The notes under the pieces: generated by a model
Told to the model about the DNA's origin: nothing
What the model saw: the letters and a program-made list of their open reading frames with translations, nothing else
The model's database searches: none
Position numbers and translations under genes: made by a program
Part shown: piece after piece, positions 7,031 through 34,066 of the stretch
Position numbering within the stretch: position 1 is the stretch's first letter
Layout: each line of letters begins with the position of its first letter
Source of the DNA: a bacterium
GTDB lineage: Bacteria > UBA10199 > JACPAL01 > GCA-016699445
Reading direction: 5' to 3'
Length of the DNA: 64,000 nucleotides
Assembly: GCA_035454885.1 (NCBI GenBank)
Contig: DATIGE010000027.1
Span: 1 to 64,000 of the forward strand

Positions 7031-7462
7031 ATGGCCACTGACAACGAGCTGCACACTCTGCACAGATATTTCATTTGGATGGATAGGATGAGAGTTCATT
7101 TTGATGAAGTTATTCGAAAAGCGGAGGGTCAATTTAAGACTGATCAAGGAGCGCAGATCGACGCATTCCTATATATGTCATATTGGTATGCGGGGATGTA
7201 TGTGGTCATCGAGGGCTGGAGGGAATTGCAACTCAGTGATGACAAGGTTGATTATCTACTAAGTTCTTCTGACCATGTTGAACTTTTGAGGAGGGATCGA
7301 AATGGAGTCTTCCATTTCCAGAAGACATACTTTGACAAGAGATTCAGTGATCTTTGGTCATCCAAGGAAATTGTAGCTTGGCTCAGAAAGTTGAGTGCCG
7401 CGTTCAGCGGATTTTTTCTACGATGGTCTCGGAGTCGCAAACTAGATTCGCGAGATGGGTAA
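7031..7462 (+). CDS. Hypothetical protein of a low-GC cassette
   Basis: 143 aa, no family recognised. It is rich in aromatic residues (FIWMD, YMSYWYAGMYVV) and contains a basic C-terminal segment FLRWSRSRK; no signal peptide or clear membrane helix is seen. Base composition is visibly more AT-rich than all neighbours, pointing to recent acquisition. Its 3' end overlaps the convergent DUF559 gene by 59 nt. Both lie between the two hairpin repeats, so it probably travelled with them. Confidence 0.6.
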   Translation: MATDNELHTLHRYFIWMDRMRVHFDEVIRKAEGQFKTDQGAQIDAFLYMSYWYAGMYVVIEGWRELQLSDDKVDYLLSSSDHVELLRRDRNGVFHFQKTYFDKRFSDLWSSKEIVAWLRKLSAAFSGFFLRWSRSRKLDSRDG

Positions 7463-7793
7463 GGACGGAGTTCAAGTGGTTCAAAACAGCGTTGTTTTGA
7501 TATCTGACCACATCCAAGGATAGGCATCGCAAATATTCTTCGCGGGCTCGATCGTGAGCTATTTGATTAATTTCGTCATGCACATCTCCATCAACTTCGA
7601 CGACGAGCCTCTTCTCAGGACAGAAGAAATCGACAACGAATGGTCCAATGCCGTGCTGTCTACGAAACTTCAGACCTAAGAATTGTTTTGCTCGTAGCTT
7701 CGACCAAAGCATTCGCTCAGCAGTCGTCATTGCCACTCTGAGTTGTCTCTTGAGCTCGAGTTTATTTGGATCGCCTCGGAGTGTGCGTGGCAT
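7404..7793 (-). CDS. DUF559-domain protein (Vsr/restriction-endonuclease-like fold)
   Basis: 129 aa with the DUF559 pattern: TTAERMLWSKLRAKQFLG, then FRRQHGIGPFVVDFFCPEKRLVVEVDGDVH, where the D and E-x-D are the likely metal-binding residues of a PD-(D/E)xK/Vsr-like nuclease. Biological role is unknown; such genes are scattered and often sit beside short palindromic repeats. It is AT-rich relative to its surroundings and is convergent with the preceding hypothetical gene. Confidence 0.87.
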   Translation of the reverse strand: MPRTLRGDPNKLELKRQLRVAMTTAERMLWSKLRAKQFLGLKFRRQHGIGPFVVDFFCPEKRLVVEVDGDVHDEINQIAHDRAREEYLRCLSLDVVRYQNNAVLNHLNSVLTHLANLVCDSETIVEKIR

Positions 7794-7874: not shown

Positions 7875-7931
7875 CCCCTCCTTGCTAAGGAGGGGTAGGG
7901 GGGAGGTGGAACAAGGGCGCCCTCCCCCTAC
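7875..7931. repeat. Hairpin repeats flanking the DUF559 cassette, right copy
   Basis: CCCCTCCTT-gct-AAGGAGGGG (7875-7895) repeats the left hairpin. It is followed by a second inverted repeat, GTAGGGGGGAGG...CCTCCCCCTAC (7895-7931). The stop codon of the downstream CBS gene lies at the end of the second arm. Confidence 0.7.
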
Positions 7932-8329
7932 TTTTCTTGCACCAGCGCCCGCAGAAAATCGAACACCGTGATGATCCCGACCATCTTGTCGCCGTCGCAG
8001 ACGGGCAGGGCGCCGATGTGCTTTTCGATCACCAGGGCGGCGGTCTTCCTGAGATCATCGTCCGGCGAGACTTTGTAGACCTTCGTAATCATCACGTCCT
8101 CCACGTGCAGATCGTCGCTCAACCGGTAGAGGTCGTTCCATTCCCTGAAGACATCCGCGATGTCGGGACGGCGCAGGTCCCGGTCGGTCACGAAACCAAC
8201 CAGTTTTTCGCCAACCACCACCGGCAAGTGGCGAAAACCGTTCTTCTTCATGATTTTGAAGGCCTCCTTGACGGAGGTGCCGGGGGTGACGGTGACGACC
8301 TTGGGGGTCATCCAGTCCTTGATCTTCAT
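7928..8329 (-). CDS. Tandem CBS-domain protein
   Basis: 133 aa made only of two CBS motifs, starting MKIKDWMTPKVVTV. The first covers residues ~8-60 and ends VTDRDLRRPD; the second ~75-130 and ends GIITVFDFL. Stand-alone CBS pairs bind adenine nucleotides and act as energy or redox sensors. Its ATG overlaps the stop of the PFOR/DHODH chimera (ATGA), so it is translationally coupled and may regulate that enzyme. AAAGGAG precedes the start. A paralogue lies at 22513-22962. Confidence 0.85.
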   Translation of the reverse strand: MKIKDWMTPKVVTVTPGTSVKEAFKIMKKNGFRHLPVVVGEKLVGFVTDRDLRRPDIADVFREWNDLYRLSDDLHVEDVMITKVYKVSPDDDLRKTAALVIEKHIGALPVCDGDKMVGIITVFDFLRALVQEK

Positions 8330-10557
8330 GATCCGCTCCTTTGAACGTTTCGTGATTCTTCTCCGGACGGGCGCCGTCGATCACGCGCGAAAAAATCGCC
8401 GGCCTCCTTGACGGAACCGAAGCCCTTGGACTCCATCCAGGCCTTGAGGACCTCCTGCAGGCGCCGGAGGTTGTCCGCCTCGGGAGTGACGTAAACGGCG
8501 CTGACGCCCGAGAGCAGGGCGCCAAGGACGTCCCCGGAGGCCGAGACGGGTCCCGCCGCTCCCAAATCGATTCCTTCGCGAGGGAGCGTCCCCAACACGG
8601 GGAGGGCGAGACGGAAAATCTGATGGCCCGGAAGAAGGACCTCGTCCCTCCTCTCGAGCGAATCCGGGTGGGGGACCGGCCCCTGCGGCGTTCGGAACAA
8701 CACCAGGGCCTTGAGTCCGGCCTGGGACAGGGAGCCGAATTCCTCCTTCAGAAAAGGACAGAGGCCGGGCGTGATGCGTGCGGCGACGGGAATGCGGACG
8801 GCGGCGCTCACGAGCTGGATGATTCGCAAGGGGTCGGCGGATCCGCCTTCCTCGGACGACTTCAGAAACAACTCGATGGCGTCCGCCCCGGCCTGTTCGA
8901 CGGCGAAGGCGAGCGCCAGCCAGTTCTTTTCCGAAACGGCCTCGATGCCGGCGATCACCGGCGTTTCGACGGCGGATTTCCAACCTCGCAGGAGCTCCAG
9001 ATGACGTTCGAGCGGAGGCCGGGCCTCGAAGCCCGGTTCAGGCTCGCCGCGGTTCAAGGCCAAGAACGTCTTCCAAGCCTCGCGGTCGAGCTCCTCCTCC
9101 GAGATCGGGCCGAAGAACAAGGCGCCGATGGGTGCCGCCGCCAGGTCTTGCCGGGGGGCTTCTTCCGAGACGCACGCGATGAACGGAGACCCGAGGCGGA
9201 ACCCCATGTAGGCGGTCCTCACGTCGGTCGCGCCGGCGGAAGGACGGGCGGGGAAGTTCCCCTCTCCGGCGTGGAGCGGAAGGACCGGGGCCGGCCGCGG
9301 GGACGAAAGCGTTATCTCGCGGCGAGCGAGGTCCATCGCCCGCCGGTGGGCGTCGACGATTTCGCCGCTGAATTCCCCCCAGCGGTCCTGGACGGCCTCC
9401 GAAACGGTCTCGAAGGCCCCCTCCGCCGGAAGCCCCAGCCAGGTCTCGGAATCGAGCAGGGACAGCAGGCTTGCGGTGAGGATGGGGCTGACGACGTCTC
9501 CCAGTCCGGCGCGCCGGGCGATGTCGCGCAAGTCCAACGAACGTTCCCGTAAGTCCGGTCCCGAGGCCGTGAGAAGAGGCCCCGCGAGAGAGATCGTCAG
9601 CGACGGCCGGAGGACGGGACCGTGACGCCGGATGGGGTTCCGGGAAAGGCGCAGGTGGATCCCGGTCGTTCCGCCCTCCGTGATCGTGTAGCACTGAAAG
9701 TACGAAGGGGATCGGGAGGATATGTTTTTGAGCAGTTCACGGACGGCGGTTTGCGCCTCGCCCCCCGACCCGCCGTCCCGGAGAATCGCTTCGAAAACGT
9801 CTTCCGGGGACGGGGATGAGGGGGACAAATCCGTGATGGGGGGGAGGGTCGTGAACCACGACCAGCCGCCGACGATGCCTTGGTGAATCGCCGCGAGGAC
9901 GTCCGCCTGCAGGACCTTGGTCGCCGCCAGGCTCCGGACCGTTGATGGAAAGGAATCCAAGAAACGGCGGCCGTCGAACGGCCGCCACAGGCGGACGCGG
10001 ACGACGCCGGTTTCCGCGTCCGGGCCGGCGTCTTGCCCCAGAGTCGCCGCGATCCGCGAGGGTTCGGCGGGGCCGGTATATTCGTAGGCGCCATAGGAGC
10101 GGCCGGTGATCGCCTTCAGACGCGCGCACAGGCGTTCGAAAGCCTCGGCGGCGGTTTCCTGGGGGGGCTTTCGGATTTCGGCGGATGCGCCCCAGTCCTC
10201 CCGCGCCAGGACGTCGATCTTGGCGAACTCGCGTCCCACCCAGCGGCGGTCGAAAAAATGGAGGACCGGGCGGCCGGTGTCCCGCGCCAGAAGCGAGGCC
10301 ACGGCGGCCATGTCGGACGCCTCTTGGGCCGAGCCCGAGGCGATGAGGGGAATGTCCTGCGACGTGAACGGGGCGAGTTCGGAAGGGTCGTCGACGGCCA
10401 CGTGAAAGGCGCGCGTGGCGCGGGCGTCCTTGTTGTGCAGGATTTCCAGGAGACTTGAATAATCCTTCGGCAGCTCGAAAACGGTCCCCTCCCAGGCCTC
10501 GGCCGTTCCCTTCACGGCTTCGATGCCTTCGAGGGCCTGGAGCGAGGGGCTTCTCAT
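8326..10557 (-). CDS. Chimera of PFOR alpha-like and dihydroorotate dehydrogenase-like domains
   Basis: 743 aa. Residues ~60-330 follow pyruvate:ferredoxin oxidoreductase domain order: GSAQEASDMAAVASLLA...HFFDRRWVGREFAKID, then ITGRSYGAYEYTGPAEPSRIA, then RVRLWRPFDG...LPSTVRS-type text, then a YTITEGGTTGIHLR stretch like the gamma-domain GxxDGTVGANK. Residues ~445-715 follow a DHODH-like TIM barrel: YMGFRLGSPFIA, VIAGIEAVSEKNW, EQAGADAIEL, IPVAARITP, VSASGDVLGALLSGVSAVYV. TPP- and Fe-S-binding regions of PFOR are absent and both halves have drifted. In some genomes intact nifJ and a DHODH-like gene are neighbours; here they appear merged. Catalysis is uncertain; a regulatory or scaffold role is possible. 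Confidence 0.7.
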   Translation of the reverse strand: MRSPSLQALEGIEAVKGTAEAWEGTVFELPKDYSSLLEILHNKDARATRAFHVAVDDPSELAPFTSQDIPLIASGSAQEASDMAAVASLLARDTGRPVLHFFDRRWVGREFAKIDVLAREDWGASAEIRKPPQETAAEAFERLCARLKAITGRSYGAYEYTGPAEPSRIAATLGQDAGPDAETGVVRVRLWRPFDGRRFLDSFPSTVRSLAATKVLQADVLAAIHQGIVGGWSWFTTLPPITDLSPSSPSPEDVFEAILRDGGSGGEAQTAVRELLKNISSRSPSYFQCYTITEGGTTGIHLRLSRNPIRRHGPVLRPSLTISLAGPLLTASGPDLRERSLDLRDIARRAGLGDVVSPILTASLLSLLDSETWLGLPAEGAFETVSEAVQDRWGEFSGEIVDAHRRAMDLARREITLSSPRPAPVLPLHAGEGNFPARPSAGATDVRTAYMGFRLGSPFIACVSEEAPRQDLAAAPIGALFFGPISEEELDREAWKTFLALNRGEPEPGFEARPPLERHLELLRGWKSAVETPVIAGIEAVSEKNWLALAFAVEQAGADAIELFLKSSEEGGSADPLRIIQLVSAAVRIPVAARITPGLCPFLKEEFGSLSQAGLKALVLFRTPQGPVPHPDSLERRDEVLLPGHQIFRLALPVLGTLPREGIDLGAAGPVSASGDVLGALLSGVSAVYVTPEADNLRRLQEVLKAWMESKGFGSVKEAGDFFARDRRRPSGEESRNVQRSGS

Positions 10558-11705
10558 TCAGCGAGCTCCCGCAGGCGGTCGATCCTCGCCGGCATGTCGG
10601 GGGGCAGATCCAGACCCTGGCTTCCCGAGAAGCCGAAGGTCGTTTCCTGCAGCCAGCGGTCGAAGCACTTCTTGGCGGTCTCGGAGTGCGGCAGGCCGGT
10701 GACGCACGCCTCCAGGTAGTATTCGTCCAGGTTCCAAAGGAGGGGATCCTCGAGAACCGAGTGGGAGACGCCCAGGATCCGCAAGGCCTCGGCCTTCTGT
10801 TCCGGCGTGGTCGGCCGCGCGAGGGTTTCCTGGGCAAACGAAACGGCGCGGAGATAACTCACGTCCCCGGCGTGGTCCGCCTGGTAGGTCTGGAGGGTCT
10901 GAGCGCGGTCCACGAGCCGCCGGGCCTTCTCAAGCCACGAAACGGCGGGGGCCGACGGGTCGAGGCTCTTTTCCCTCTTCCATTCGCCCACGTCCTTTTT
11001 CCAGGCCTCAATCTGTCCGCGGAAAAAGCCGGAGAGATCCTTCCTTGCGTGGACGCGATCCAGGATCTCCTGAGCGAGCTTGGGGTCCTGCTTCACTCGG
11101 ACCGCGATCGTCAGGGCATTCCTCACGGCGTGCGGCAGTTCCGTCGACCGCGCGGCCACCGAAGGCTCCTTGGCGAGAATGTCCTGATAAAGGGAAATGG
11201 CCTTGTCGAACTGGCGGGTGGCGGCGAGGAATTCCGCCTTCTGGAAGGGCGTGAGCTTCAAGGCGTCCAGTCGGCGGCCGCCGTCCCGGAACGTCTTGCC
11301 GGTCGCGGAACTCGTGTGGCACTCGAAGCAGAACCCGGTCGCCGTGCGGATGCGGTTCCTCAGGTAGACGGGATTCCCGGATTTTGCCGCCTCTTTCAAG
11401 TCGGCCAGGTATTCGGAGTAGACCGAGGCCACGGCGGAGAGTCCCGGACGCGTCGCGCCGGTCACCTCCGGCATGACGTGCGCGATGCCCTCCAGCCGGT
11501 CGATGAGCGCCACGATCTTGGCGTAATTGGCGGCCTTGCGAAAACTCTCGGGCGAGGCCGCGATTTCTTGAAGTTCCAAGATCGTGGCGAAGTTCTGATT
11601 CATCATCGGCTTGAGTTCTTCGGTCGAGGCTTGCTCTGCGCGCGCGGCGGGCGTCAGGATCAGCGAAAGGAACGAAAAGACAGAGAGAAATAAGGTTGTC
11701 TTCAT
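10554..11705 (-). CDS. Periplasmic monohaem c-type cytochrome-like protein, mostly helical
   Basis: 383 aa from the ATG at 11705, which begins a clear signal peptide (MKTTLFLSVFSFLSLILTPAARA). One haem c motif, CFECH, lies near residue 132. The remainder (FQKAEFLAATRQFDKAISLYQDILAKEP and later repeats) looks like TPR/solenoid helices. The frame extends upstream to 11804 but the extra residues look non-secretory. A GGAGGAG sits ~20 nt before the chosen ATG, a long spacing. The 3' end overlaps the chimera gene by 4 nt. Confidence 0.7.
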   Translation of the reverse strand: MKTTLFLSVFSFLSLILTPAARAEQASTEELKPMMNQNFATILELQEIAASPESFRKAANYAKIVALIDRLEGIAHVMPEVTGATRPGLSAVASVYSEYLADLKEAAKSGNPVYLRNRIRTATGFCFECHTSSATGKTFRDGGRRLDALKLTPFQKAEFLAATRQFDKAISLYQDILAKEPSVAARSTELPHAVRNALTIAVRVKQDPKLAQEILDRVHARKDLSGFFRGQIEAWKKDVGEWKREKSLDPSAPAVSWLEKARRLVDRAQTLQTYQADHAGDVSYLRAVSFAQETLARPTTPEQKAEALRILGVSHSVLEDPLLWNLDEYYLEACVTGLPHSETAKKCFDRWLQETTFGFSGSQGLDLPPDMPARIDRLRELAE

Positions 11706-11825: not shown

Positions 11826-13319
11826 TCAGCGCACCACCACCACATCCTCATTTTCTCCCACGTACCGTCGTGCGAACGATAGCTCCTGCTCGTTCTCCGC
11901 AAAGATCGTGTAGAGCGGTGCGCCCTTTTTGACCGCGTCGCCCGTCTTGGCGTGCAGGTAAACGCCGGCGGCCGGGTCGGTGGGGGCGCCGGCGAGTTTG
12001 GCGACCCGCGCCAGCTTGAGGTTGTGCAGGGACGCGATGCGGCCGGAGGCGGGACTGCCGATCGTCGCCTTGTGGGAGGCCTTGGCCCAGGGCTTCAGCG
12101 TTCCCTGCTTGGTCGCGATCGCCAGGAACTTTTTGAGCGCGTGGCCGGAGTCGAGGATGCCGCGCGCGGCCGCGGCGCCTCGGCCTTTGGCGATCTTGTC
12201 CGCGAATTCCAAGAGCTCGCCCGCGAGTGCAATCGATTTCTCCCTCAGGTCGGCGGGGGCGTCATCGCGCCCCTCGAGGACCTTCATCACGTCCTGGGCC
12301 TCCAAGACCGGGCCGATGCCGCGGCCGACGGGCTGGCCCCCGTCCGTAAAGACCACGCGCACCTTGAGGCCGATCCGTCGCCCGACGCGCTCGAAGAGTC
12401 GCTTGAGACGGAGGGCGTGGGCCTTGGAACGGACCTTGGCCGTGGGACCGACGGGGATGTCGAGGAGGACGTGGGTCGATCCCGCCGCCCTTTTCTTGGA
12501 GAGGATCGAGGCGATCATCTGACCTTCGGAATCCAGGGAGAGCGGGCGTTCCACCGAAATGATGATATCGTCGACGGGCGCCAGGTGAAGGGCGCCGCCC
12601 CACGCGATGCACGCCTTCTCCTGCGACACGATCCTCTTCATGTCTTTCAGGGAGAGGCGGACGTTCGTGATTTGCTCCATGGTGTCGGCCGTGCCCGCGG
12701 GCGAGGTGATCGCACGCGAGGAGGTCTTGGGAATCGGAATTCCGAAGGCTGCCACGATGGGAACGATGATCATCGTGGTGCGGTTGCCCGGGATGCCGCC
12801 GATGCAGTGCTTGTCGAGGACGATCGGCAGTTTCCAGCGGATGGTCTCGCCGGTCGCGATCATCGCCTCGGTGAGCCATACGATCTCGTTCTCCGTCAGC
12901 CGCTTTTGGGCGCAGGCGACGACGAAGGCGGTCAGTTCGATGTTCGAGTAGCGGTAGGCGGCGACGTCGCGGACGATGCCCAGGATCTCGCAGCGGCTCA
13001 AGACCCGACCGTCGAGCTTTTTGCGGACGAAGTCGGTAGAATGCAGAGGGTTGGGGTGGGCGAGCGAGACCTCCGCCCCTTCCGGGGCCCCCAGTCGGCG
13101 GAAAGCGGTGATGGAGAAGCCGATCTCGCCCTCGTGGATCATGTTGTTTTCGGTCATGTTGAGGGTGGCCAGGATCGACTTCTTGCCGTAACGGATCTCG
13201 ATCTTGGAGAGGGCGGCGAAGCCCAGGCTCTTGCAGATCTCGCAGCCGACCGGCATGTAGACGATGTTCTCGCGGTAGGTGTCGATGCCCACCTTGCGGA
13301 CGCGAAGGGTTGCCGTCAT
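11826..13319 (-). CDS. AMP/thymidine phosphorylase-family enzyme
   Basis: 497 aa, longer than bacterial DeoA (~440) and matching the ~500-aa archaeal-type AMP phosphorylase subfamily with an extra N-terminal domain (residues 1-85). Active-site text is well conserved: DKHCIGGIPGNRTTM, IPKTSSRAITSPAGTADTME, and a C-terminal barrel region (LHAKTGDAVKKGAPLY). It phosphorolyses nucleosides or nucleoside monophosphates to (phospho)ribose-1-phosphate. Start chosen at 13319, where ATGA overlaps the mutase stop. No RuBisCO or ribose-bisphosphate isomerase is in the window. Confidence 0.82.
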   Translation of the reverse strand: MTATLRVRKVGIDTYRENIVYMPVGCEICKSLGFAALSKIEIRYGKKSILATLNMTENNMIHEGEIGFSITAFRRLGAPEGAEVSLAHPNPLHSTDFVRKKLDGRVLSRCEILGIVRDVAAYRYSNIELTAFVVACAQKRLTENEIVWLTEAMIATGETIRWKLPIVLDKHCIGGIPGNRTTMIIVPIVAAFGIPIPKTSSRAITSPAGTADTMEQITNVRLSLKDMKRIVSQEKACIAWGGALHLAPVDDIIISVERPLSLDSEGQMIASILSKKRAAGSTHVLLDIPVGPTAKVRSKAHALRLKRLFERVGRRIGLKVRVVFTDGGQPVGRGIGPVLEAQDVMKVLEGRDDAPADLREKSIALAGELLEFADKIAKGRGAAAARGILDSGHALKKFLAIATKQGTLKPWAKASHKATIGSPASGRIASLHNLKLARVAKLAGAPTDPAAGVYLHAKTGDAVKKGAPLYTIFAENEQELSFARRYVGENEDVVVVR

Positions 13320-14743
13320 GAAGCCGCCTTTTTCATCCGGTCGATGAACGTCTCGTCCGTCGATTCGCCATAAATCCTCAAGAGAGGTTCGGTCTTGGAG
13401 CGCCGGATCAGGATCCAGCCCGAACGAAAGGACCACTTCACCCCGTCCAACGTCGATGTCTCCAAGACCGCTTCGCCCACGGCCCGTTCCCACAGGAGGG
13501 GATCGAGCCATTTTTCAGCCTCCTCCCGGGAAGGCAGTTTCAGATCGACGCGATGATAATGAAAATGTCCGTACCGCCGTCCCAGGTCCGCGATCAACTC
13601 CGGAATCGTTCTTCCCGTCGTTGCCAGCATTTCCAGGACCAGACCGTGCGCCATGAGACCGTCTTTGAAGGGAAGGTGAGGGCCGTACGCCATCCCGCCC
13701 GTTTCTTCGAAGCCGATCAGAGGATTTGGGTCTTCCACCATGTGGCGGCCCATGCTCATGAAGCCCACGGGCTCGATCCTCAAGGGAACGCCGAAGTCCG
13801 CGCAAACCCGCCGTGTGAGCTCCGAACAGCTCACCGTTTGAGACACCGTCCCGCGCTCGCCGCGAATGGCCAGCAGGTACCAAGCCATCAATGTGCCCAG
13901 GGGATTGTTTTGGACGTAGAGGCCGGCGTGATCCATCGCCGAAAACCGGTCGCCGTCCACGTCGGTCGCAAGCCCCGCGATCGCGCCTGATCTTGGGACG
14001 AGGGCGCCCAGTTCCGTGAGGGAGGTCGCGTCGGGTTCCAGACGCCGCCGTCCGAAGGTGGGTTCCATCGCCATGGGAACGCCGGTCTGTCGGACGCCCA
14101 GCGAATCGAGAAAGAGCGGAAAGAGCGGCGTGACCGTCCCGGCGAAGGCGTCCCAGGCGACGGAGAGGCCGGCCGCCCGGATCTTGGCGGCATCGACGTG
14201 TTTGAGGATCGAATCGATGTAACGCCGGCGAAGGGCCTCGACGTCCGCGAGTCCGGCAAAGCGGCGATGAAGGTCAAAGTGTAAGGGCGAATCTCGTGAA
14301 AAGCCCCCTTCGGGGTGTATTCTCCCTTCCAAGATCTCATTCGCGCGTTTCTCAATCCGATCGGCCAGATCCCGCCCGATCAGGGCCCCGGAGGCGTCGA
14401 GGACCTTGAGGCCGTTGTAGTAGTACGGATTGTGGCTGGCGGTGACGACCAACCCGAAATCGTACGGGGTGTCGCGCGCCAGTGTCGCGACGCCGGGCGT
14501 TGGAAACATCTCCGGGATCAGATCGACCGACCAGCCCAGCGTCTCCAAGAGCGCGGCGACATGATGGCCGAACTCCTTCGAGAGAAACCGGTTGTCGAAG
14601 CCGACGATCGCCCGCCGCGGGGGTAAGAGGCCCGCCAGGGCGGAAACGACCGCCGAAAGCCGGGCGACGGTGAAACCTTCCGCGGTGACGGCCCGCCAAC
14701 CGGAGTCGCTGATATGAAGTCTTGAAGAACTGATATTCGTCAT
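13316..14743 (-). CDS. Phosphohexomutase family protein (PGM/PMM type)
   Basis: 475 aa of the alpha-D-phosphohexomutase family. The phosphoserine loop is VVTASHNPYYYNG (~residue 100), the metal loop is TDVDGDRFSAMD (~245), the sugar-binding loop is GFEETGGMAYGP (~335), and a phosphate-binding RSGWILIRRSKTEP lies near the C-terminus. It isomerises sugar 1-phosphates and 6- or 5-phosphates. Translational coupling with the phosphorylase makes ribose-1-phosphate (phosphopentomutase activity) a sensible substrate, but glucose or mannose phosphate cannot be excluded. Confidence 0.85.
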   Translation of the reverse strand: MTNISSSRLHISDSGWRAVTAEGFTVARLSAVVSALAGLLPPRRAIVGFDNRFLSKEFGHHVAALLETLGWSVDLIPEMFPTPGVATLARDTPYDFGLVVTASHNPYYYNGLKVLDASGALIGRDLADRIEKRANEILEGRIHPEGGFSRDSPLHFDLHRRFAGLADVEALRRRYIDSILKHVDAAKIRAAGLSVAWDAFAGTVTPLFPLFLDSLGVRQTGVPMAMEPTFGRRRLEPDATSLTELGALVPRSGAIAGLATDVDGDRFSAMDHAGLYVQNNPLGTLMAWYLLAIRGERGTVSQTVSCSELTRRVCADFGVPLRIEPVGFMSMGRHMVEDPNPLIGFEETGGMAYGPHLPFKDGLMAHGLVLEMLATTGRTIPELIADLGRRYGHFHYHRVDLKLPSREEAEKWLDPLLWERAVGEAVLETSTLDGVKWSFRSGWILIRRSKTEPLLRIYGESTDETFIDRMKKAAS

Positions 14744-32579: not shown

Positions 32580-33751
32580 TTGTCCTCCAGAAATTCGAAC
32601 GACAAGGACTCGCCGGCGGCGATGCGTTGTTTGGAGGCGGGGACGATCAGAACGGCGTTGGCGCGGGCGAGCGAGCGGAGCATGGCCGAACCCTGCGCCC
32701 CGGCGGAGCGGGCGATGAACCGGCCGTTCTCGGAGGTGACGATTCCGCGCAGATAGACCTCCTTGCCGGAGGCGCCCTTGAGCGGCTCGGCCGCGACCGC
32801 CTCGTGCGGGGTGCGGCTGATCTTTTCGGCCCCCATCATCTTGAGGAGGGCCGGCCGCACGAAGCGGTCGAAGACCAGGAGGGCGGAAACGGGGTTGCCG
32901 GGCAGGGCGAAGACATGGGTCCGTCCCCAGAGGGCGTAGAGCAGAGGCTTGCCCGGTTTGATGGAAACCTTGTGAAAAACGACCTGGGCTCCGAGCGCCT
33001 CGAGGGCCTTCGGGACCAGGTCGAAGTCGCCGGCGGAAACCCCGCCGATGGTGATCAGGACGTCTGCGCCGTTCCCCCGGTTCAAGGCCTTCTTGAGCGT
33101 GTCCTCGTCGTCGACGGCGGCGCCGACCGTCTCCGCCTCGATCCCCATTTCCTTGAGGGCGGCGGCGAGAGCGGGGCCGTTGCTGTTGTAAATTTGTCCC
33201 GGTCGTAGGGGCACGGCGCGCCGTGCCCCTACATCGACCAATTCCGAACCCGTCGAGAGGACGCGCACGCTCGGTCTGCGAAAGACACGGACGGTCTCAA
33301 GCCCCAGGGCGGCCATGAGGGCGATCGTCCGGGACGTGATCCTTTCGCCCGCCCCGAAAAGCCGGTCGCCCTTCGCCACGTCCTCGCCCGCCCGGCGGAT
33401 GTTGTCCCCCCGGGTGACGGGTTTCATGATGGGCCATTCTTCGAACGGCACGACGGCATAAGCGCCTTCCGGCACCGGGGCCCCGGTCATGATGCGAAAG
33501 GCCTCTTCGGGATGAATGACGGACGGTCCCCGATCCCCGGCCGCAATCGTCGGCATGACCTGAAACGAATCCCCTTCGCCGGCGATGACGTACCCGTCCA
33601 TGGCGGAATTGTCGAAGGGTGGGAGCGGGATGGGGGCGACGACCGGACTGGCCAGGTGCCGGTGAAGGGAGTCTTTCAGGGGGCAATCTTCGATGGAAAG
33701 CGGCTCGGCCCGCGAGAGGATCGCGGCCAGCGCGTCCTGCGCTGAGGTCAT
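32576..33751 (-). CDS. moeA: Molybdopterin molybdenumtransferase
   Basis: Inserts molybdate into adenylated molybdopterin. 391 aa from ATG 33751 with AAGGAGAAG at ideal spacing. Features: PFDNSAMDGYV (~45), RIMTGAPVPEGA (~86), STGSELVDVG (~166), GGVSAGDFDLVP (~240), ALPGNPVSA (~290), and a C-terminal barrel domain. Residues ~174-183 (GARRAVPLR) derive from a perfect 28-bp palindrome that replaces the usual short GEPL turn, apparently without loss of frame. First gene of the moco-nirK operon. Confidence 0.94.
   Translation of the reverse strand: MTSAQDALAAILSRAEPLSIEDCPLKDSLHRHLASPVVAPIPLPPFDNSAMDGYVIAGEGDSFQVMPTIAAGDRGPSVIHPEEAFRIMTGAPVPEGAYAVVPFEEWPIMKPVTRGDNIRRAGEDVAKGDRLFGAGERITSRTIALMAALGLETVRVFRRPSVRVLSTGSELVDVGARRAVPLRPGQIYNSNGPALAAALKEMGIEAETVGAAVDDEDTLKKALNRGNGADVLITIGGVSAGDFDLVPKALEALGAQVVFHKVSIKPGKPLLYALWGRTHVFALPGNPVSALLVFDRFVRPALLKMMGAEKISRTPHEAVAAEPLKGASGKEVYLRGIVTSENGRFIARSAGAQGSAMLRSLARANAVLIVPASKQRIAAGESLSFEFLEDN
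33205..33232. repeat. 28-bp perfect palindrome inside moeA
   Basis: Arms GTAGGGGCACGGCG/CGCCGTGCCCCTAC are exactly self-complementary. It shares arms with elements at 51562, 53491 and 57201, so it is a member of a dispersed palindromic element family. Confidence 0.8.
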
Positions 33752-33803
33752 GTTTCTTCTCCTTGCCAATTCGGCCCCGATCCATTGGATCGGAACGTCG
33801 GGT

Positions 33804-33827
33804 GGCGGTGCCGTTTCCGGCGCCGCC
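33804..33827 (-). terminator. GC hairpin downstream of tatA
   Basis: GGCGGTGCC and GGCGCCGCC can form a 9-bp stem (one G-U) with a 6-nt loop, between tatA and moeA. No T-run follows in the direction of tatA transcription, so a terminator role is tentative; it could instead attenuate readthrough into moeA. Confidence 0.3.
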
Positions 33828-33892
33828 CCGTCCCAAGGACCGTGTCCTAAGCCGCGCGGCCTAGGGTTTAGGTCCCTGGGATCGGAGTTTGT

Positions 33893-34066
33893 TCAGGTCA
33901 ACCGGTCCTTAATCTCGGCCGTTTCCTTCTCGACCTCCCTGATCCCCTTCTTAAAGTTCTTGAGGAACTTTGCGAGCCCCTCTCCCAAGGAAGGGAGTTT
34001 GCTGGGTCCGAAGATCAGGAGGGCGAGAGCCAAAACGGCGGCGATTTCCCAAGGTCCGAGTCTCAT
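33893..34066 (-). CDS. tatA: Twin-arginine translocase TatA/E subunit
   Basis: 57 aa from ATG 34066: one membrane helix (WEIAAVLALALLIFGPSKLPSLGEGLAKFLKNFKK type) with the FGPxKLP hinge, amphipathic helix and acidic tail. It forms the pore for folded, cofactor-containing proteins; ActB in this window carries an SRRDFLK Tat-like signal. No tatBC nearby. A near-palindromic ATGATTTTTGTCAC lies 57 nt upstream. Confidence 0.9.
   Translation of the reverse strand: MRLGPWEIAAVLALALLIFGPSKLPSLGEGLAKFLKNFKKGIREVEKETAEIKDRLT

Follow-up and report, generated by a model that had tools for sequence, protein, structure and literature searches.

The PFOR gene nifJ and the gene for a DHODH-like protein of the PRK07565 type (NF005741), which often lies just downstream of nifJ, are recorded as members of the same transcription unit in Synechocystis (PMC11368403). 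We found no paper assigning this DHODH-like protein a role, though it is a neighbour of nifJ in many phyla. The family is widely kept even though the Cys that is catalytic in class I dihydroorotate dehydrogenases is already missing from it. In 58 of the 80 best loci, out of 538 confirmed, nifJ lies on the same strand as a DHODH-like gene (61 pairings when split frames are counted), with nifJ directly upstream in most and gaps mostly below 300 bases. These pairs span the Acidobacteriota, Bacteroidota, Chloroflexota, Cyanobacteriota, Verrucomicrobiota and others, which agrees with a preliminary description of the DNA analysed here, where the two genes were said to be separate neighbours in some bacteria.

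In the window, a stretch of 64,000 nucleotides from a bacterial draft genome, alignment of a single predicted protein of 743 amino acids shows a PFOR half fused to a DHODH-like half, with the cofactor sites of both lost. Its gene occupies 8326-10557 of the minus strand as one unbroken open reading frame, while the plus-strand frame of the same stretch is interrupted by stops. The parts of this gene are as follows.

8326 to 10557, minus strand: coding sequence of the fused protein (P0001), 743 amino acids, called from the open reading frame and a coding signature like that of the adjoining genes.
10168 to 10557, minus strand: remnant of PFOR domain I, residues 1-130, beginning near PFOR residue 65 (PDB search, profile, alignment).
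9823 to 10167, minus strand: remnant of PFOR domain II, residues 131-245, with TGRSYGAYEYTGPAE and RLWRPFDG and with the DRTKEPG loop deleted (PDB search, profile, alignment).
9304 to 9822, minus strand: remnant of PFOR domain III, residues 246-418, with YFQCYTITEGGTTGIHLR and large internal deletions; the similarity is weak taken alone (E 1e-4) and the assignment rests on collinearity.
9229 to 9303, minus strand: linker, residues 419-443, in place of PFOR domains IV-VII (alignment; low model confidence).
8404 to 9228, minus strand: DHODH-like barrel, residues 444-718, with altered flavin-site positions (NCBIfam, alignment, model).
8326 to 8403, minus strand: divergent C-terminal tail and stop, where GC3 drops to 0.38 and family similarity ends past residue 720.

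All of the motifs quoted earlier are present in this minus-strand frame (HFFDRR, AYEYTGPAEPSRIA, RLWRPFDG, GGTTGIHLR, YMGFRLGSPFIA and GDVLGALLSG). The gene has a GC3 of 0.81 and a codon log-likelihood of 0.29, against 0.21-0.34 for the adjoining genes, and the signature holds in both halves. About 16 stops would be expected in random sequence of this composition, and the probability of meeting none is about 2e-7. The gene is present in one copy in the host genome, a draft of 2.76 Mb in 82 contigs that is 100% complete and 0.21% contaminated.

Residues ~1-418 form a collinear, gapped remnant of PFOR domains I-III. The first part is matched by the NCBIfam PFOR model TIGR02176 (E 2.1e-15, 56 bits vs a cut-off of 911) and by PFOR chains in a PDB sequence search (E 3e-11), with POR_N of Pfam giving a sub-threshold match only. 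Circularity was removed by building independent profiles from other genomes, with the fusion left out (23 PFOR N-terminal parts and 36 DHODH-like proteins). Against these the fusion scored 70 bits for PFOR in four collinear blocks (57-121, 134-212, 251-311 and 341-415) and 89 bits for the DHODH-like family across 444-718, and none of 400 composition-matched shuffles of the fusion fell below E 0.9. A joint three-family alignment for a full-length model was discarded after its PFOR rows misaligned on the barrel, so the halves were modelled apart. In Foldseek searches of the PDB, the AlphaFold2 model of the PFOR half (pLDDT 71, moderate) matched PFOR at E 7e-22, and that of the barrel half (pLDDT 82) matched class I DHODH, dihydropyrimidine dehydrogenase and other flavin barrels at E ~1e-10, an agreement of fold that is not fully independent since the guiding alignments contained the PFOR and DHODH-like families. 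Overall, separate profile searches, shuffled controls and predicted folds agree on the identity given to the halves in the preliminary description, including the structural match of the first half to PFOR.

The likeness to PFOR nifJ (TIGR02176; PDB 1b0p, 6cin) lies in the order and fold of domains I-III and in the motifs HFFD, TGRxY, RLxRPF and GGxTxxHLR. The fusion departs from nifJ in starting only after the first ~64 residues, in having lost several loops and in missing domains IV-VII altogether, and identity is only ~25%. Glu64, a residue with a functional role in PFOR, falls in the missing N-terminal part together with Thr31. By alignment, R46 occupies the position of Arg114, and domain I is incomplete, lacking its N-terminal part and two of the three residues Thr31, Glu64 and Arg114. 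The roles of Thr31 and Arg114 have been described for PFOR (PMC5020499). Across the stretch compared, 175 PFOR columns are near-invariant (conserved in at least 95% of the compared sequences), with 46 kept in the fusion, 85 substituted and 44 deleted. The earlier observation that the TPP and Fe-S parts are gone holds, with the Fe-S and TPP-partner columns of domains IV-VII missing from the alignment and no Fer4 or TPP_enzyme_C match found in the fusion by Pfam, which leaves neither domain VI (TPP, proximal 4Fe-4S) nor domain V (two 4Fe-4S). In a tree, the branch leading to the PFOR half is extremely long (~10 changes per site) and the half is not placed.

The DHODH-like half resembles PRK07565 over the whole barrel (residues 444-718, 25-36% identity) and shares its N-terminal YMGxxLxxPF motif. 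The NCBIfam match (E 1.9e-28) reaches about 100 bits (99.6-102.9), short of the curated cut-off of 303. Barrel fold and family-wide alignment are those of PRK07565, and 25 of the 49 near-invariant columns of the family are kept; those lost include the conserved N, K, N and GG of the flavin site. Fusion to a PFOR remnant, altered flavin-site positions (S537G, N539E, N564F, K594R, N622R, G670P) and a divergent C-terminus set it apart from that family. These altered positions are presumably FMN contacts, as established for class I DHODHs and carried over to the fusion by alignment. The class I enzymes (PDB 1ep1, 1jub) share the barrel fold (Foldseek probability 1.0, TM 0.61), in contrast to the fusion's lack of the catalytic Cys and the change of most of its FMN contacts. 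Of the catalytic alterations reported earlier for this half, the flavin-site changes are therefore real, whereas the lack of the Cys is inherited from the DHODH-like family.

A survey of genomes for the same fused gene, as proposed earlier, yielded no further member. No second PFOR-DHODH fusion was found in 46 genomes of the host's class, in 385 genomes of many groups (the host's class included), in 41 genomes of two other phyla or in either of two scans that covered 84,980 species; on plasmids, PFOR and DHODH-like matches were separate only. The second of these scans rests on the best 80 of 538 confirmed loci, among which no frame held both halves, and could have missed a distant fusion. Our literature search likewise returned no account of a PFOR-DHODH fusion. 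Weak PFOR-half profile matches in four genomes of the same order proved to be ordinary three-subunit 2-oxoacid oxidoreductases, and one DHODH-like match was a PreA-type protein; none of these is related to the fusion as such. Long frames around DHODH-like genes in genomes G183, G221, G060, G087, G320 and G263 were frame overlaps, and one in genome G111 was a different fusion. The latter (L093, 1439-4015, plus strand) encodes 858 amino acids, joining a DHODH-like domain to a GltD-like glutamate synthase small-chain half with ferredoxin-type cysteines. In related genomes, the loci L190, L192, L194, L195 and L196 are three-subunit 2-oxoacid oxidoreductase operons in the order gamma-alpha-beta, and one of them adjoins a citrate synthase gene.

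A merger of neighbouring nifJ and DHODH-like genes is plausible because such separate neighbours are common and share a transcription unit in Synechocystis, and the fusion likely arose from such a pair. The PFOR half is somewhat closer to DHODH-linked than to solo PFORs (median 54.8 vs 48.8 bits, p 0.007, relatedness ignored). Scored against the same gene pairs, one half shows no significant correlation with the other (rho 0.20, p 0.14), and origin from one pair is therefore unproven. One deletion would have taken PFOR domains IV-VII together with the intergenic space, and further deletions would then have removed the PFOR N-terminus and loops.

The fused gene lies between two others, with which it shares the following features.

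10554 to 11705, minus strand: upstream gene for a monohaem protein, probably exported, with the signal-like start MKTTLFLSVFSFLSLILTPAARA and weak TPR similarity (sequence inspection).
11316 to 11330, minus strand: haem-binding motif CFECH in the monohaem gene.
10554 to 10557, minus strand: ATGA overlap of 4 bases between monohaem stop and fusion start (ORF coordinates).
7928 to 8329, minus strand: downstream gene for a 133-aa protein of two CBS domains (PF00571, E 9.5e-33).
8326 to 8329, minus strand: ATGA overlap of 4 bases between fusion stop and CBS-protein start (ORF coordinates).

The ATGA overlap on each side suggests translational coupling of the fusion with the monohaem and CBS genes, in line with what had been proposed for this locus. 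By inspection, the fusion starts with neither a signal segment nor a strongly hydrophobic stretch. Since the monohaem protein begins with a signal-peptide-like segment, the two probably work in different compartments, judged by simple inspection. Monohaem relatives from two genomes of the class (L036, 1733-2890; L037, 9012-10190) are 28-36% identical to the protein in the window and without a clear Pfam family; they adjoin cytochrome/oxidase genes, with neither fusion nor CBS gene there, and may represent a respiratory-linked cytochrome family not described before. Within the cytosol, the CBS protein is a plausible partner of the fusion, the link being purely genomic. Directly upstream of the operon lies an archaeal-type AMP/thymidine phosphorylase gene (11826-13511, minus strand; PRK04350, 681 bits; TIGR03327, 513 bits, just below its cut-off). 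An AMP salvage-to-RuBisCO route is possible, as the host genome has this gene and one for a RuBisCO large chain (C49). The window also holds a DUF559 endonuclease-like gene adjoining the operon (7404-7793, minus strand) and a molybdenum/tungsten cofactor riboswitch (33743-33899, minus strand; RF01055, 45 bits).

Codon usage, the unbroken frame and the 4-base overlaps with both adjoining genes speak against a misassembly or a recent pseudogene and for a gene that has been maintained. An assembly or sequencing artefact joining two genes might be suspected from a single 82-contig draft, but one false join cannot explain residue changes spread over both halves on top of many separate deletions in the PFOR half; there is no convincing repeat at the junction, codon usage runs on across it, and with the completeness and low contamination of the assembly we regard an artefact as extremely improbable. 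A decaying pseudogene that is open by chance would account for the extreme divergence, the lost catalytic residues, the odd GC3 of the tail and the absence of a relative in the same order. Such decay would, however, have to leave 743 stop-free codons despite deep divergence, a uniform coding signature in both halves and tight coupling to intact adjoining genes, and it appears unlikely.

A still-active redox enzyme with a re-shaped site is also conceivable, in which the barrel would bind FMN or another ligand anew and the PFOR half would present a substrate or partner. The barrel retains its fold and core well and is modelled with confidence, K594R is conservative, Arg114 is retained, and the standard DHODH-like family persists widely without the class I Cys; nearly all polar flavin-contact positions nevertheless differ (N564F, N622R, G670P, N539E) and the Fe-S and TPP parts are gone, making retained activity quite unlikely. 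The preliminary description hinted that the fusion, the monohaem protein and the CBS protein form a new complex with a redox or regulatory function, to which the overlaps among all three genes would lend themselves. The redox version does not fit a monohaem protein that looks exported beside a fusion that does not, nor monohaem relatives that sit among cytochrome genes without fusion or CBS gene, and the fusion has no electron-carrying sites; a complex of all three proteins seems very improbable.

We put at about even the chance that the fusion is a lineage-specific, cytosolic double pseudoenzyme acting as a non-catalytic scaffold or regulator, a function deduced rather than observed. By alignment, the product retains PFOR domains I-III and the flavin barrel as folds and lacks the TPP, Fe-S and canonical FMN sites. 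The surviving domains would probably serve as a binding platform, either a scaffold or a ligand-responsive regulator, and the co-translated CBS protein, which is a typical adenylate sensor, may send them a signal or receive one from them. The monohaem protein belongs to the same operon but probably works outside the cytoplasm. The fusion need not carry 2-oxoacid oxidoreductase activity, because the host genome has two separate, intact-looking 2-oxoacid oxidoreductase (KorAB-type) loci. Against the double-pseudoenzyme reading, it should be noted that only a single member is known and that the branch of ~10 changes per site also fits a decaying gene.

The fusion of neighbouring genes is usually read as a hint that their products work together. 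If both folds were kept with both cofactor sites lost, this would suggest that the two proteins of the ancestral active pair touch physically and that their contact is valuable apart from catalysis. More tentatively, a sparsely sampled lineage could have built a non-catalytic regulator or scaffold of a new kind by fusing what is left of two neighbouring redox enzymes and coupling it to a CBS nucleotide sensor. If true, the fusion would count as a double pseudoenzyme of a kind that is rare in the core metabolism of bacteria.
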